Origin: Streptomyces sp. NRRL WC-3549
GTDB taxonomy: Bacteria > Actinomycetota > Actinomycetes > Streptomycetales > Streptomycetaceae
DNA length: 6,329 nucleotides
NCBI RefSeq assembly: GCF_000721935.1
Contig: NZ_KL585424.1
Span: forward strand, 32,194-38,522
Direction of reading: 5' to 3'
Of this stretch, positions 1-5,734 are shown in pieces (positions within the stretch are counted from its first letter, which is position 1; the number at the start of each line of letters is the position of its first letter). The notes below the pieces were generated by a model that was not told the origin of the DNA, made no database searches, and worked only from the letters and a program-made list of their open reading frames with translations. Both the position numbers and the translations under genes were made by a program.

Positions 1-213
1 GGCCAGCCGCTGGGCTGCCCGCTCGATCTCACGAAGATCCAGCCGCCAGCGCTGCTTGTGCTTGTAGCCGCGCACAGCGACATCACCGACGATGACATGG
101 TTGCTGCTCTGGAACGCATACCGGGACAGATTGAGGTCCGGGGCTGCACGCACCAAACAGTCCGCGGTCCGCTCGGTCAGGATCCGGCGCGCCTCCTGCG
201 GCGAGATCAGCAC
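1..213 (-). CDS. Unrecognised protein, N-terminal 71 codons, runs off left edge
   Basis: An open frame starts at a GTG (213-211) and stays open to the window edge. About four fifths of its codons end in G or C, as expected for a real actinobacterial gene, while the other frames here are low-complexity Arg/Pro/Ala shadows. The product begins MLISPQEARRILTER and has an amphipathic N-terminal helix region, two probable beta strands (around VIVGDVAV and RWRLDL) and a further helix (REIERAAQRL). That layout could fit a small winged or excisionase-like DNA-binding fold, but I see no diagnostic motif and do not assign a function. The start has no Shine-Dalgarno of its own. Its GTG overlaps the stop of a 27-codon ORF as GTGCTGA, so translation is probably coupled. 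It lies downstream of tniQ on the same strand and could be the first cargo gene of the element or a transposon accessory gene. Confidence 0.6.
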   Translation of the reverse strand, partial: MLISPQEARRILTERTADCLVRAAPDLNLSRYAFQSSNHVIVGDVAVRGYKHKQRWRLDLREIERAAQRLA

Positions 214-474: not shown

Positions 475-1596
475 TCAAGATGGCTCCCATCCACCGGTCA
501 GGGAAGATCTACCGGCCTCCTCGGTGGCCTCTCGGGAGCGGGAATCGATGAGGAAAGTGGTGCGCTCGCTGTGCTCCACCGGACGACGGGCCGGGAGAGG
601 GACCGCCCACAGGCCGGCACCGGCCGGCTGCTCCGTACCGTCTGTTGCTCCGAGACGAGCGACCCACTGCTCCAGCAGAGCACCAGCATTCGCGCCGTTG
701 CCGGGCCAGCGCCCGATCCGGGAGCAGGCTGCGAGCCAGTCGCCGAGCCACAAGCGCCCCGTGCGGCGGCCGAGCTCTGTCAGCAGGATCCCGGTCGCCG
801 CAGGGGCTCCGTACGCCACGGCCGTCTCCCGCAGACGCATCTGCCAGCCGTGATCCACCAGAAGACGGGCAACGGCGACCGTGTCGGGATAGGTGATCAG
901 TGCGTGTGCTGTGACGGCGGACGGTGAGCGGCCCGTGAGCGAGGACAGGAGAGCGGTCCGTGCGTGCCAGACGGCCTCCTGCTTCCATCCCTGCACCTGC
1001 CACGACCACACCATCGCGGCAGCCAGTTCCACCACCGCACGAGCCTGAGGATGAGTGCGCAGCAGAGCGGTGTGATGCTCGTGGGCCGAGAGGACCTCAG
1101 GCAGAGACTCAAGATTGATGGCGCAGGCCCGCTCACAGTTGGCCAGCAGCCACCTCCGGTGCCGACGGCAGATGTGGCCGGCTGCCTCCGGATATACCAG
1201 GACGGGCTGTTGAGGTGACCAGAAGCGGCCGCAACATTGCAGGCAGGCCGCCACCCATGCCTTCCCCGGGGCATACCAGGCCGCCCGGGGAACAGGGCCT
1301 TCCTCAAGCCGCTCGTGCGTGAAGGCGAATCCAGGGAGCAGAGCGGCGAGCTGGGCTACTGAGGTACCGGTGAAGCGGGCGAAGGCTGCCCGTGCAGGCG
1401 CGTTGAGATACAGCTCCAGCCCGTTGCGCGGCGTTCCGGTGATCCCGGCACTTAGTGGTCCTGTCATGACGCCGCGGACCAGGTCCTGGACGGACATGCG
1501 GTATCCGTGGGCGAGCCGCCGGCTCCAGGAGCCAGTCAGCTCCCCAGCAACGGGCGGCACCTGCACCAGCGCACGAGGCACAGCAGAGACTTCCAC
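475..1596 (-). CDS. tniQ: TniQ/TnsD-family transposition targeting adaptor
   Basis: TniQ-family proteins recognise or dock at the target and recruit the TnsC ATPase in Tn7-like and Tn5053-like elements. With the GTG start at 1596-1594 the product is 373 aa. The N terminus carries the family's opening pattern (VQVPPVAGELTGSWSRRLA, residues 11-29), normally seen within the first 30 residues of TniQ. A zinc-binding motif follows: C118-x2-C121 and C143-x2-H146, the latter in HICRRHRRWL. The rest is helical with a polar, unmotifed C terminus. The start is chosen because AAGGAA (1604-1609) sits 7 nt upstream; the same frame is open to a GTG at 1692, but that would add 32 residues unlike the family and has no ribosome binding site. 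Only one zinc motif is clear and no extra DNA-binding domain is visible, so it is closer to a compact TniQ than to the longer TnsD. It is the only target-selection protein visible. Confidence 0.87.
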   Translation of the reverse strand: MEVSAVPRALVQVPPVAGELTGSWSRRLAHGYRMSVQDLVRGVMTGPLSAGITGTPRNGLELYLNAPARAAFARFTGTSVAQLAALLPGFAFTHERLEEGPVPRAAWYAPGKAWVAACLQCCGRFWSPQQPVLVYPEAAGHICRRHRRWLLANCERACAINLESLPEVLSAHEHHTALLRTHPQARAVVELAAAMVWSWQVQGWKQEAVWHARTALLSSLTGRSPSAVTAHALITYPDTVAVARLLVDHGWQMRLRETAVAYGAPAATGILLTELGRRTGRLWLGDWLAACSRIGRWPGNGANAGALLEQWVARLGATDGTEQPAGAGLWAVPLPARRPVEHSERTTFLIDSRSREATEEAGRSSLTGGWEPS

Positions 1597-1764
1597 AGTC
1601 AAGTTCCTTAGAGAGCGGGGGACCACGCCGGTGGCACGCGGGAGACGACTCGGGCCAGGAAACGAAGCAGAGAGGAGAAGAAGGGGGTGCACTGGCGCCA
1701 GGAACCTGTTGCGCCCGGATCCGGCCGAGGCCTCACAGACCTGGTCGCAGTCAGCAGGTGTTGC
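1597..1764. other. 168-nt gap between tnsC and tniQ
   Basis: This is the only real gap in a module whose other junctions overlap. It contains the tniQ ribosome binding site and a 10-bp palindrome, CTGGCGCCAG, at 1692-1701. I do not see a promoter or a terminator. The upstream extension of the tniQ frame through it shows no resemblance to TniQ proteins. Confidence 0.45.
1604..1609 (-). promoter_or_regulatory. Ribosome binding site deciding the tniQ start
   Basis: AAGGAA on the minus strand, 7 nt before the GTG at 1596-1594. It supports this internal GTG over the GTG at 1692, and means tniQ is translated independently rather than by coupling to tnsC. Confidence 0.6.
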
Positions 1765-2802
1765 TCAGCTGTTGGTATCCCGGCGAGAAGCGCGTGAACC
1801 CTTCGTTGCCTGCACGTCGAGGATGACCTTCGACAGAGACTTCTTCGTGATCGCCTGGCTGCCGTCCAGGACGGCGCAGATCGCGGCCTCACGTACGAGC
1901 TGGGACAGGCTGGCCAGCACGCCTCCCGTCCGCAGATGGATGTAGTCCGCGTGGCGTTCGAGAGTCCCGGCCCGGTGGCGTTTGAGTCGCAACGCCGACT
2001 CCACCTCTCTCAACAGCCTTCGCCACACCTGTTTCTGGTGCTCGGTCCCATTGAGCAGAGGAAGTGAGCGCAGGACCTTGAACCTGGCGGCGAGCTGGGC
2101 ACCGCGCGGGCCCGTCAGCAACGGCGCCGTCTCCACATCCACACCAGCCAGAACAAACGTTGCGGGGATCCGCTCTGCCAGCGACTTCAGCTGGTCGGAC
2201 GTGTCGGCCCCCGGACGTGTCCGGGTGTTGAGAAGGTGCACATCATCGATGAACACGATCTGGGTACCCCGCTCGCACAGGACGGCGCACACCGCGTTGG
2301 TGATCGTGGTCTCGGTCATCCCATCGTGCACGGGAAGACACAGAAATCGTGCCAGTGCCGTGACGAGCGTCTTCGGCGTATACGAGGGAGGGATGCCGAG
2401 GAATGCGACCGGCAGGGTGTCAGCACGGTCGGGATGCTGGCGCCGGTACTTGAGCTCAAAGCTCCGGGCCATCTCCATAAGAGTGGTGGACTTCCCCGTA
2501 CCAGGGGGACCGGAAACAATCAGCCCACGTCGCGCGGAGCCCTCCTGATGACGGTTGAGGACCAGGAGCACCCTCAATTGCTGCAGACTCTGCTCCATGG
2601 AAGCGGTCGTCAGCGTCACGAACTTGGAGTGATAGTCCAGCTGGGAACGGCCCGTCCACGTCGGGTCACTCACCGGCAGAGCAACTTCACGCTGCTGCGC
2701 AAGATAGGACCTCCACCGGAAGTAGGTGACGATCGGATTGCACACCGACCCTTCGTCCCCCAGACCTCCCTCGGGAGGGAACCCCGTGCCTACAGCAACC
2801 AC
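1765..2802 (-). CDS. tnsC: TnsC/TniB-type AAA+ transposition regulator ATPase
   Basis: TnsC-type ATPases bind target DNA with ATP, take the signal from TniQ and activate the TnsB transposase. The 345-aa product (from the GTG at 2802-2800) has a Walker A motif GPPGTGKS at residues 98-105, a Walker B IVFIDD at 182-187 followed by VHLL, a sensor-1-like strand FVLAGVD at 216-222, and the AARFKVL segment (238-244) that TniB proteins carry after it. The length is typical of TniB/TnsC ATPases of the Tn5053 and actinobacterial Tn7-like groups and much shorter than Tn7 TnsC. The start is chosen because GGAGGAGGA (2806-2814) lies 3 nt upstream; the frame is open further up to 2886, but that part overlaps tnsB and reads as low-complexity Arg/Gly. 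The start overlaps the last 13 nt of tnsB, so the two are probably coupled. All nucleotide-binding motifs look intact. Confidence 0.92.
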   Translation of the reverse strand: MVAVGTGFPPEGGLGDEGSVCNPIVTYFRWRSYLAQQREVALPVSDPTWTGRSQLDYHSKFVTLTTASMEQSLQQLRVLLVLNRHQEGSARRGLIVSGPPGTGKSTTLMEMARSFELKYRRQHPDRADTLPVAFLGIPPSYTPKTLVTALARFLCLPVHDGMTETTITNAVCAVLCERGTQIVFIDDVHLLNTRTRPGADTSDQLKSLAERIPATFVLAGVDVETAPLLTGPRGAQLAARFKVLRSLPLLNGTEHQKQVWRRLLREVESALRLKRHRAGTLERHADYIHLRTGGVLASLSQLVREAAICAVLDGSQAITKKSLSKVILDVQATKGSRASRRDTNS

Positions 2803-4925
2803 TGGTCCTCCTCCGCGCTCGCGTCCGTACGGACAGCGGAACCCCCCGAAGCCGCGGGGACGTCTCCCAGCGGCGCCCCGTCCCAACCGGCCAGAATCTC
2901 GTCGTCCTCGTCCGGAACAGTCTCGTCGTCCATGTCAGGCGCCTCGTACACACCGGTCAGCCCGAACGACAACGTCGGAGCGCTCAACAGGTCCAGCCCC
3001 GCCGCCGGCACAGCCAACGTCTGGACCGCACGGGACTTGGCCACCACACGCTGCTCGCGGCGCGACAGATTCCCGTTGCCCGACGCCCGCTTCAGGAAAT
3101 CATCCAGAGCCAACGCAAGCTGCGCCTCGTGCTCATCACGCCCCTGGGTCCGTTCGACGACCTTGCACAGGTGCTCCCAGACATGGTGGGTGAACGGCTG
3201 GCTTACCTGGGTGGCATGGATCCAGGGCACCTCCCTGAACCCTTCCGGAAGGCGCACCCAGATCCGAGTCACGTCGTAGGGGTTGTAGTGCACCTCCCAG
3301 AGGCCCTTCTGCGCTCCCACACCGGAGCTCTCGCCGCGGGACCCGTTGAGACACTTGTCGTCATACGTGCGGTAGTCGAACCTGATCCCGTTGTCAGTGA
3401 TCGCCTGCCAGCGCACCGGCAGAAGTTCCACGTAATCGTCCGTGCCCAACGGCACCGGCACATACCCCACCACCGGCAACAACGCCGCCCACATCTCACA
3501 CGGAGTGAGAGCCTTCTTCGGCATCAGAGGATGGCGCAGGCCTTCATGCGGACGGTGATGCCACAGCACCAACTGCTCATCCAGGAGCTCCTGCAACTCC
3601 CGCAAATTCCACAGCTTTTCCTCACCTGCCTTCGAACCACGCTCGGACAGGTTCGATCCGATGTAGCCGGGTACCCACTGCCAGTACAACGAGTTCAACG
3701 AGCCGAACGTCCGCTCCACGTGGCCCTTGGCCGGCCCGTTGCCCGGCGGGACGGGCTGCAACGAGATCCCCAGGCTCTCGCACGCGGCCCGCGTAGCGGG
3801 CGACACGAAGACCTTGCCCTGATCAACCACGATCGTCTCGGGCACGATCACCGGACGAGCCGCCGCCTCCTCCAGCCGCCTATCCAGGCTGACCAGCCGT
3901 TCATACGGGATGACCGACGCGGACATACGCAACGCCTCGTCCCAACCAGGCTGCATCACCTTCGGGGTCATCATCTGCGCCAACAGCACCGCAATGTCCG
4001 TCAGTTTGCTTCCCGGCGGACGCAAAATCGCCCACAGGCCTCCGATTGCCACATCCAGCGCCGTAGTCAGCTCCGGACGGCCCACCACTCCGTCGTCCAG
4101 AGCAACCAGCACATCAAGCGGCGTGCTGTCCATCATCACCAGCTCACCCGGACGCAACGCCACCGTCCGGGCGAACGGCGGAGCAGGCCGCGACGCCCGC
4201 GAACGCCGCTGCGCCACCGTCCCCTCCAGTCCGAGCTCCCTTTCCAGCTTGCGCAGAAGCTTGTTGAACGTCGACTGAGGCGGCGCCTCCACCACACCCA
4301 CGCCGTGTGCAGCGTCCAGCAGCCACTGGCACTGGCGGTGCATACGCTTGGCCCACCCCCGCGAACGGGATCGCGACTCCTCCTGCCGCAGCAGCTTCTC
4401 CAACACCGCCAGCACCCGCTTGTCGGCGCGGTCCAGCAACGAAGACCCCCGCTGCTTGGGCACCAGCTCCCACACGCCGCCCCGGCCGTACCGCTCACGC
4501 CACCTGCGCACCGTGGCCCGGCTGACCTTCCAGCCCGACGCCAGCAACTCGTCCGCCTTCGCCAGCTCCCGCTGCTCCAACGTCGTGCGTGCCGGGTCGT
4601 ACATTTCCCGCACCGGCCCGCGACCGCCCGGCACCGGATACCCGGTCTCGACCTCACGGACATGCCGTTCCATCGAGAAAGCCCGCTCGCGCACCTCCTC
4701 CGGCAAAGTGGCCAGCAGACCGTACTGGGGCGCCTTCAGTGGCGACGGCCCTCCGACCACCTCGAATCCCGGGCTGCTGAACAGTGCGGACAGCCCGAGC
4801 ACCGCCATCACGCCAGTGCTGCTCTGTTCGGTCAGCCAGACGCGTCCCGACTCCAGACCGCTCACCGTCCACCGGCGACCGTCGAAACGAACTTCCCCGT
4901 CGATTTCCAGCACGGGCCGCGTCAC
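2790..4925 (-). CDS. tnsB: TnsB-type DDE transposase (Mu/Tn7/Tn5053 integrase superfamily)
   Basis: This is the strand-transferring transposase: it binds the transposon ends, cuts the 3' ends and joins them to target DNA. The 711-aa product has N-terminal helix-turn-helix segments (around residues 118-150, with SRATVRRWRERYGRGGVWELVP; a second helical region from 165 to 226 includes PPQSTFNKLLRKL). The RNase H-like catalytic core carries D266 in MMDSTPLDV, D368 in VVDQGKVF and E404 in GHVERTFG, a D,D35E spacing. Residues about 500-572 (LPVRWQAI ... VPWIHATQ) match the beta-barrel C-terminal domain of Mu-type transposases. The tail (662-711) is strongly acidic, as expected for a region contacting TnsC. 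The GTG start overlaps the tnsA stop as GTGA, with GGAGGGG (4931-4937) 5 nt upstream. Length and catalytic residues suggest a functional enzyme. Confidence 0.95.
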   Translation of the reverse strand: MTRPVLEIDGEVRFDGRRWTVSGLESGRVWLTEQSSTGVMAVLGLSALFSSPGFEVVGGPSPLKAPQYGLLATLPEEVRERAFSMERHVREVETGYPVPGGRGPVREMYDPARTTLEQRELAKADELLASGWKVSRATVRRWRERYGRGGVWELVPKQRGSSLLDRADKRVLAVLEKLLRQEESRSRSRGWAKRMHRQCQWLLDAAHGVGVVEAPPQSTFNKLLRKLERELGLEGTVAQRRSRASRPAPPFARTVALRPGELVMMDSTPLDVLVALDDGVVGRPELTTALDVAIGGLWAILRPPGSKLTDIAVLLAQMMTPKVMQPGWDEALRMSASVIPYERLVSLDRRLEEAAARPVIVPETIVVDQGKVFVSPATRAACESLGISLQPVPPGNGPAKGHVERTFGSLNSLYWQWVPGYIGSNLSERGSKAGEEKLWNLRELQELLDEQLVLWHHRPHEGLRHPLMPKKALTPCEMWAALLPVVGYVPVPLGTDDYVELLPVRWQAITDNGIRFDYRTYDDKCLNGSRGESSGVGAQKGLWEVHYNPYDVTRIWVRLPEGFREVPWIHATQVSQPFTHHVWEHLCKVVERTQGRDEHEAQLALALDDFLKRASGNGNLSRREQRVVAKSRAVQTLAVPAAGLDLLSAPTLSFGLTGVYEAPDMDDETVPDEDDEILAGWDGAPLGDVPAASGGSAVRTDASAEEDQWLL
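2806..2814 (-). promoter_or_regulatory. Ribosome binding site deciding the tnsC start, inside tnsB
   Basis: GGAGGAGGA on the minus strand, ending 3 nt before the GTG at 2802-2800. It lies within the codons for the acidic end of TnsB (AEEDQWLL), so the TnsB C terminus and the TnsC start signal share the same bases. Confidence 0.65.
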
Positions 4926-5734
4926 AGCTGCCCCTCCGTCTCCGGGTGGGCCGACACCGTCATGACGCGCTCATGGAGCGGCCGGTTGAGAGCTGTACTC
5001 AATACACCTCTCCACAGCGCATGGAAGACAGCCGGCCACACCGCGATCGGGTCACCCAGCAGGCGCACACCCTCCACCAGGGGCCTCAGAACGCGGAAAC
5101 ACTCCGTGACGCGGGACAGCCCGTCCGGTGCACACCGCGGATGCCGGTATCCGGCAAGCCAGCGGACGTTGGCTTCGACTGCCGCGGAAGGCGGGCCCAC
5201 CAGCCTGTAGTGCCATCCAGCTGCCTCGGCCGCGGACTCGACATGCAGGGCCCGCCGGACCAGGCGCCGACCGGCACCGCGGGCACCTGCACAGTCGATG
5301 AGCACACCGCTGCCATTGGCGAGCCTCGCCATGAGATGCGGCGCATGTGACACCACGTTCCCGCCCCGGCCCCGCCACATCAGTTCCACCGGCCGGCAGG
5401 CGACAGCAATCACCTCAGGGTCACGGTCCAGCAGCATCACCTGGGTCCGCATCGCCCCGAACCCGTAGTGCACGTGACGCCCGGACGTAGCCATCCACCA
5501 CCAACCCGGAGCGATGCGCCGCCCCTTGAGTACCGGGAACTGCTGAACAGGGACGCACTCCTCCAGCGGATACTCTCCGGCCGCTTGAAGCCATGGAGTC
5601 TGATGCTCCTGGCCGGCACCATCCACATACCGGGCCTCCACCAACGCCGGATCTACCCGACGGGCACCGAAACGGGGCAAGGAGGCGGCAGCGGGCGTCA
5701 GCAACGCCGGCTTCTGCGCGGACAAGGGGATCAC
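4922..5734 (-). CDS. tnsA: TnsA-like transposase endonuclease subunit, catalytic residues apparently lost
   Basis: TnsA cuts the 5' ends of Tn7-like elements and so makes movement cut-and-paste. With the GTG start at 5734-5732 the product is 270 aa. Family landmarks in order: PGWWWMATSGRHVHY (76-90), VMLLDRDPEVIAVACRPVEL (99-118), VVSHAPHLMAR (127-137), VLIDC (144-148), GWHYRLVG (173-180), NVRWLAGYRHPR (189-200), then a C-terminal helical domain (AVWPAVFHALWRGVLSTALNRPL, 231-253). In active relatives, as I recall them, the motif after HVxY is ESWLER-like and the second is HxPDF-like. Here these read GFGAMR (91-96) and HAPHLM (130-135), so the expected Glu and Asp are absent, and no QxK/VDVK-type third motif is clear. 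The start is uncertain: AAGAAGGG (5746-5753) is 11 nt upstream, rather far; the frame is open to 5896 but that stretch does not resemble the family. The gene is coupled to tnsB by a GTGA overlap. Confidence 0.85.
   Translation of the reverse strand: MIPLSAQKPALLTPAAASLPRFGARRVDPALVEARYVDGAGQEHQTPWLQAAGEYPLEECVPVQQFPVLKGRRIAPGWWWMATSGRHVHYGFGAMRTQVMLLDRDPEVIAVACRPVELMWRGRGGNVVSHAPHLMARLANGSGVLIDCAGARGAGRRLVRRALHVESAAEAAGWHYRLVGPPSAAVEANVRWLAGYRHPRCAPDGLSRVTECFRVLRPLVEGVRLLGDPIAVWPAVFHALWRGVLSTALNRPLHERVMTVSAHPETEGQL

Follow-up and report, generated by a model that had tools for sequence, protein, structure and literature searches.

A Tn7-like operon of Streptomyces encodes a conserved TnsA without nuclease residues and belongs to a clade located at the ends of linear replicons

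A 6,329-nucleotide stretch of the genome of Streptomyces sp. NRRL WC-3549 (contig NZ_KL585424.1, positions 32,194 to 38,522; hereinafter the window, meaning the whole stretch) holds a Tn7-like operon whose TnsA-like protein (270 aa; 4922..5734, minus strand) has lost the nuclease residues of its family, and the large clade of TnsA proteins to which it belongs is located almost exclusively at the ends of linear replicons. On balance, and with confidence slightly above an even call, we favor the reading that this is a Tn7-like chromosome-end element in which TnsA serves as a non-cutting scaffold, transposition is of a copy type driven by TnsB only, and, in the window's own subclade, an endonuclease VII-type protein acts on the branched intermediate. 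Below, we call TnsA proteins and loci dead or intact according to their nuclease residues, and designate loci and genomes by L and G labels, respectively, G000 being the window's genome and C44 its contig (74 kb).

The window TnsA matches the NF033179 profile (TnsA_like_Actin) with 249.6 bits (E 2.1e-74; cut-off 110 bits). Its structure was predicted with confidence, and the model contains a restriction-endonuclease-like domain and a C-terminal winged helix as in the structure 1f1z; the nearest solved structures are those of TnsA. The original prediction had held that the TnsA fold is kept, and both the profile score and the predicted structure bear this out. In PDB searches, an alignment of the dead clade alone (A1) retrieved no TnsA, and a mixed alignment including intact relatives recovered a TnsA-type chain (9bw1, E 4e-5), with PseTnsAB reached at just E 0.2.

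At the positions of the catalytic Glu, Asp and Lys/Arg the window protein has Met95 (codon 5450..5452), His133 (5336..5338) and Ala149 (5288..5290; these and the codons below are on the minus strand), and it thus lacks the residues expected of an active enzyme. Intact family members encoded in other Streptomyces and in actinobacterial genomes read ESWLERD, SQPF, HAPDYF and DVR at the corresponding sites. The program hhalign places Met95 opposite Glu63 of Tn7 TnsA and misaligns the Asp region; accordingly, the Asp and Lys positions were assigned via the intact relatives and a profile alignment with PseTnsA, in which the mixed-relative profile brings the HxPD Asp and the Lys/Arg opposite their PseTnsA counterparts at a weak E of 0.2. 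The available text of PMC13228271 gives the PseTnsA catalytic triad as Glu34, Asp71 and Lys87, a numbering that was matched with a hand-counted offset of two. Besides the catalytic positions, the Gln of SQPF is replaced by Arg114 (5393..5395) and the first Glu of ESxxE by Gly91 (5462..5464), while Asp147 (5294..5296) is retained. The first Glu of the motif is absent from Tn7 itself (Leu59 by the hhalign offset), and the second, catalytic one is also lost here, at Met95. The alignment with Tn7 TnsA and actinobacterial relatives therefore upholds the loss of the active site proposed originally, and extends it from Glu and Asp to the Lys/Arg, but moves one of its landmarks: Gly91, which had been taken for the site of the lost Glu, corresponds to the first Glu of the motif, and the catalytic one is at position 95.

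These changes are shared widely. In an alignment of the window protein with the best 120 of 847 homologs (121 rows), position 95 is Met and position 91 Gly or Ala in every row, position 133 is His, Gln or Ser throughout, Lys/Arg149 is found in none, and Asp147 in 119. A tree of 166 rows (with matches of <150 aligned residues, identical rows, L198 and the duplicate L001 left out) separates 90 dead from 76 intact rows by one change, with a support of 94 for this split and of 97 for a main clade of 80 rows that includes the window. Intact rows were defined by Glu91 and Asp133, so that the counts at these two positions hold partly by construction: of the 80 main-clade rows, 77 have Gly and 1 Glu at position 91, and 52 have Gln, 24 His and 4 Asp at position 133. 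The independent contrasts between the main clade (80) and the intact rows (76) are Glu95 (0 vs 75), Gln114 (4 vs 76, with Arg in 73 and Ser in 3 of the main-clade rows) and Lys/Arg149 (1 vs 74); Asp147 persists in 79 of the 80. A second dead group of 10 rows (L034, L045, L050, L073, L075, L080, L084-L087), which joins the main clade on the tree over long branches, has lost both Glu in 10/10 and the HxPD Asp in 2/10, keeping the latter in 8/10. One main-clade relative (L167:9773-10711) has Glu at 91, Ile at 95 and His at 133; thus, single-residue drift occurs at the dead site.

The ratio of nonsynonymous to synonymous substitution rates (dN/dS; Nei-Gojobori) of the window TnsA against four relatives is 0.21, 0.26, 0.16 and 0.22, and that of TnsB against two relatives 0.16 and 0.26; from the similarity of these values it follows that selection holds the dead TnsA about as tightly as it does the transposase. 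Clade-wide changes under purifying selection were thus what the search for homologs with the same changes returned, and a pseudogene or a sequencing error, the latter of which would have undone the original prediction, was rejected, as the changes are common to all of the best 120 of 847 homologs and selection is strong. A second active TnsA in the same operon was likewise rejected, there being none in the window's own locus; the Pfam TnsA-N profile carries no weight on this point, as it gave no match anywhere, not even in the controls. Judged from these alignments, the residue loss is a property of a large clade and not an accident of one protein. In two loci, one dead and one intact (L085:9137-12499, 1121 codons; L076:6002-9166, 1055 codons), tnsA and tnsB lie in one long open frame, possibly coding for TnsAB fusions.

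The clade is located almost exclusively at the ends of linear replicons. On contigs >5 Mb, 21/24 dead loci are found no farther than 65 kb from a contig end, a limit chosen after the distances were known, as against 1/60 intact loci (Fisher 1.3e-15, without correction for kinship); counted by genome, the same contrast is 20/22 vs 1/39. In all 21 of the terminal dead loci, tnsA is the gene closest to the end and transcription runs inward, and the intact branch lies at a median of 1.9 Mb inside the chromosome. These figures are from a table of loci selected from the homolog lists (left out were, e.g., G392:C1:8377294, G047 and G626:C1:5280141), in which mirror copies in terminal repeats were counted once and two unclassable fragments and the double fragments of one locus were dropped. 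The exceptions among the 24 dead loci are a decayed interior fragment (L258) and the loci of G626 and G007, which are near mid-contig. For the latter two we had predicted contigs opened at the origin before searching for dnaA, and the search agreed: dnaA lies at 1 kb (G626) and 244 kb (G007) of the contig, and about mid-contig in most other chromosomes searched. With dnaA near the contig end, these contigs were opened near the origin, and mid-contig is therefore the expected site of the chromosome ends. The second dead group follows suit, with three of its 4 loci on contigs >5 Mb at most 65 kb from the end and one opposite dnaA. In G522, a genome that carries a member of the window's subclade, mirror copies of it lie 47 kb from both ends. 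The window contig and the terminal region of G522 share the tns operon and a UvrD-type helicase gene in the same order, the helicase gene being 12-18 kb upstream of tnsA, which in G522 is the side of the chromosome end; the window contig is also collinear with Streptomyces griseus NCTC13033 over most of ~17 kb.

In Tn7-type transposition TnsB cuts and joins the 3′ ends, and TnsA normally cuts the 5′ ends. A structural role for the kept TnsA would be the natural inference: the nicking and joining of the 3′ ends would fall to TnsB alone, with TnsA holding the complex without cutting. As the 5′ flanks would stay joined to the donor without TnsA cleavage, the latter would keep its chromosome end while a copy forms via Shapiro-type intermediates. 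An active TnsA, on the other hand, would cut the end, and with it the telomere, off the donor, and the loss of cutting may have been kept for this reason. In Tn7, catalytic point mutations of tnsA abolish cut-and-paste and leave replicative transposition intact, according to the available text of PMC8649781, and the cointegrate products expected of the window element by the original prediction and by us would agree with these genetics. The same source, as far as its text is available, notes that tnsA-less Tn7-like elements tend to carry resolvases (PMC8649781). We found no match to a serine or tyrosine resolvase in the scanned sequence of the window's 74-kb contig, which in this respect departs from those elements; the resolvase-family matches of G000 (3 to PF00239 and 4 to PF00589) are every one on contigs other than C44. 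In the window's subclade, the product of the fifth operon gene might take the place of resolvases and act on the branched intermediate left by TnsB-only transposition.

This fifth gene is ~400 codons long, follows tniQ and codes for an Endonuclease_7 domain (PF02945), with matches of 39.8, 40.7, 41.3, 45.6 and 42 bits in 5/5 relatives scanned (cut-off 23.6). The window contains its first 71 codons (1..213, minus strand), which match the fifth-gene profile; the gene runs past the window edge and continues to G000:C44:31003. Within the window's subclade, each locus with tnsB, tnsC and tniQ also has this gene (10/10: that of the window, L131, L132, with L133 and L134 identical to it, L136-L141, and L240 of G522); L135 is too short to judge, and L142 has tnsA alone, with no tnsB or fifth gene within 10 kb. 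The motif W-D-H-C-H...R-G-P-x-C-x-x-C-N is invariant, save for x, in 9/9 aligned fifth-gene rows, and its D-H...N residues align, weakly, with those of Hpy99I (E 0.03) and T4 endonuclease VII (E 0.4). A genus-wide search recovered close copies (>490 bits) in G000, G522 and G549, adjoining tniQ or a tniQ remnant. Around more distant relatives, the tns operon adjoins the gene in none of 14 regions inspected, with a weak TnsA match ~6 kb off in one and a TnsC match ~8 kb off in one. Within the subclade, tniQ and the endonuclease VII gene form one open frame in L141 (L141:12932-16405); in L137 (L137:13299-15155) an open copy of the gene precedes a decayed copy of a different type, which resembles the outcome of a module swap; and in L140 a tniQ remnant lies between tniQ and the gene. 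In three scanned loci of other dead subclades (L143:13762-17283, L239:10971-14555 and L243:8959-13509) TniQ is instead fused to several helicase-associated (HA) repeats, and such a fusion is possibly a target selector for chromosome ends.

The constancy of this gene invites the alternative of a nuclease swap, in which the endonuclease VII-type protein makes the 5′-strand cut or immediately cleaves the branched intermediate, and the element leaves the donor as a discrete piece. Its place after tniQ in every complete subclade locus, the fused frame of L141, the succession of copies in L137 and the invariance of its catalytic residues would all suit such a swap; yet the gene is missing from the dead main-clade loci outside the subclade, L142 makes do with tnsA only, distant stand-alone relatives occur without adjoining tns genes, and endonuclease VII enzymes, as is generally known, recognize branched DNA and not transposon ends. 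We thus hold the swap to be unlikely, if a contender to be taken seriously. Somewhat less probable again, in our estimate, is that the fifth gene codes for a target selector reading folded or branched telomere DNA together with TniQ, the nuclease motif being secondary: it does occupy the place of the TniQ-HA fusions in L143, L239 and L243 and is in frame with tniQ in L141, but an invariant D-H...N motif is unexpected of a role in binding only.

Two further possibilities concern TnsA and the operon as a whole. The location at chromosome ends, the fixed inward orientation and, in some chromosomes, the mirrored copies at the two ends might also speak of an operon domesticated for those ends, e.g., for terminal-repeat exchange, with TnsA merely holding TnsB and TnsC; we consider this quite improbable, given that the TnsB DDE residues, the TnsC Walker residues and TniQ have been retained under purifying selection and that copies with stops or in fragments resemble the turnover of mobile elements. 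We accord the least credence to a TnsA pocket that still cuts via shifted residues, such as Glu117 and Asp147 acting as a metal pair. Glu occupies position 117 in 66/80 main-clade rows, as against an acidic residue in ~1% of the intact ones, Asp147 is nearly universal in the clade, and in the model Glu117 opens the strand preceding the one that leads to position 133. Against this, Arg replaces Glu117 in 13/80 rows, no Lys is conserved in at least 80% of rows in main-clade columns 45-262, and no conserved acid has newly arisen in the helix of the catalytic Glu, Asp103 and Asp105, located where this helix ends, being common in intact rows too.

Several observations weigh against the reading that we favor, of a non-cutting TnsA scaffold in a chromosome-end element. 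That the window itself lies at a chromosome end is something we infer, its 74-kb contig being unplaced and having no identified telomere, and the decayed dead fragment L258 lies 363 kb inside. Because the tree unites the dead loci in one clade, location and residue loss share one history and are not independent. The fifth gene was found in 0/47 dead main-clade loci outside the subclade (counting loci in which tnsC is followed by 5 kb or more of sequence), and the dead TnsA therefore does not need it; the AlphaFold model of the fifth-gene product is poor (pTM 0.61), with no match under E 0.001 to any fold, the expected His-Me finger included. No second NF033179 protein was found in G000, which speaks for the favored reading, yet the assembly is 85.5% complete and an intact TnsA partner might lie elsewhere in the genome. 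As for the transposon ends, no shared terminus emerged when ten loci were compared over the 900 bases that follow the fifth gene: L132 and L140 are alike for ~100 bases past the stop and the window locus and L131 over most of the 900 bases, and in the other pairs the similarity ends at the stop or close to it. A more sweeping proposition, that Streptomyces chromosome-end transposons dropped TnsA cutting so as to copy the chromosome tip onto another replicon without loss to the donor, and that one lineage recruited an endonuclease VII-type resolver fused or coupled to TniQ, is put forward tentatively, as we think it rather doubtful in its entirety.

All five genes of the window operon are on the minus strand, in the order tnsA, tnsB, tnsC, tniQ and the fifth gene. 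The tnsB gene (2790..4925) codes for a 711-aa DDE transposase and shares four bases with tnsA, as had been pointed out originally. In a profile search its DDE-family matches are below their cut-offs; Asp266, Asp368 and Glu404 are present, and in an alignment of 298 rows the triad columns are conserved (D 239, D 234 and E 231, with gaps in 51, 60 and 63 and other letters in the remainder). TnsC (1765..2886, the start not being fixed) is an AAA+ ATPase with PF13401 and PF05621 (TniB) matches above cut-off and conserved Walker residues, and tniQ (475..1692) codes for a protein of 405 aa matching PF06527 with 32.2 bits (cut-off 27). Thus, the TnsB triad, the TnsC ATPase and TniQ that mark a Tn7-like element are all found in the operon. 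Among the neighboring frames, of which 235 were listed and few scanned with Pfam, the gene adjoining the fifth gene in the window's genome (G000:C44:29808-30917; L071:7808-8917) and in L131 has no Pfam match and carries DADFI...GNLIDCKAT, which we read as PD-(D/E)XK nuclease-like. In several dead loci, tnsA is immediately preceded by a conserved gene of ~470 codons (L243:4557-5975, L098:3299-4708, L239:5217-6632 and L092:5663-7246); 2/4 scanned (L243 and L098) match TniQ weakly, below cut-off.

A telomeric transposon has one transposon end, with the telomere as its other boundary. Work by Hsieh et al. of 2025 (Science 387, eadp1973) is said to describe such transposons in linear bacterial genomes, with Tn7-type machinery at Streptomyces chromosome ends, and the available text of PMC12669027 cites it on this subject. 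Telomeric transposons of Streptomyces are therefore already known, and it is the link of a dead TnsA clade to chromosome ends that we rate as new; a search by titles and openings of abstracts, with the subscription literature mostly outside its reach, turned up nothing published on a dead TnsA clade, nor on Tn7-like operons with an endonuclease VII gene. The clade illustrates that TnsA can lose its cutting residues and still be retained as a protein, as it keeps the dead subunit under selection like that on TnsB. It also ties the residue loss to life at chromosome ends, the suggested reason being that a donor would lose its telomere through excision, and opens a direct test of the exchange of Streptomyces terminal repeats between replicons and strains. 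Finally, the window's subclade is a candidate case of a nuclease swapped by nature in a Tn7-type system, which would be useful for choosing between replicative and simple insertion.

With the tnsA-less Tn7-like elements (of the Tn5053 type and the type V-K CRISPR-associated transposons, CAST) the window element would share transposition without 5′ cutting, via cointegrates, as expected for them in the available texts of PMC8649781 and PMC13228271. It differs from them in that the TnsA protein is kept under selection and in the absence of a resolvase match on its contig. Compared with Tn7 TnsA (PDB 1f1z, 1t0f), the window protein has Met95, His133 and Ala149 in the places of the catalytic Glu63, Asp114 and Lys132. 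A further close counterpart is the intact branch of NF033179 (e.g., L002-L024), which is of the same family and is adjoined by TnsB and TnsC, with few exceptions, in the scanned loci having enough sequence; unlike the dead clade, this branch keeps the ESxxE, Q, HxPD and DVR/K motifs and resides mostly far inside the chromosome.

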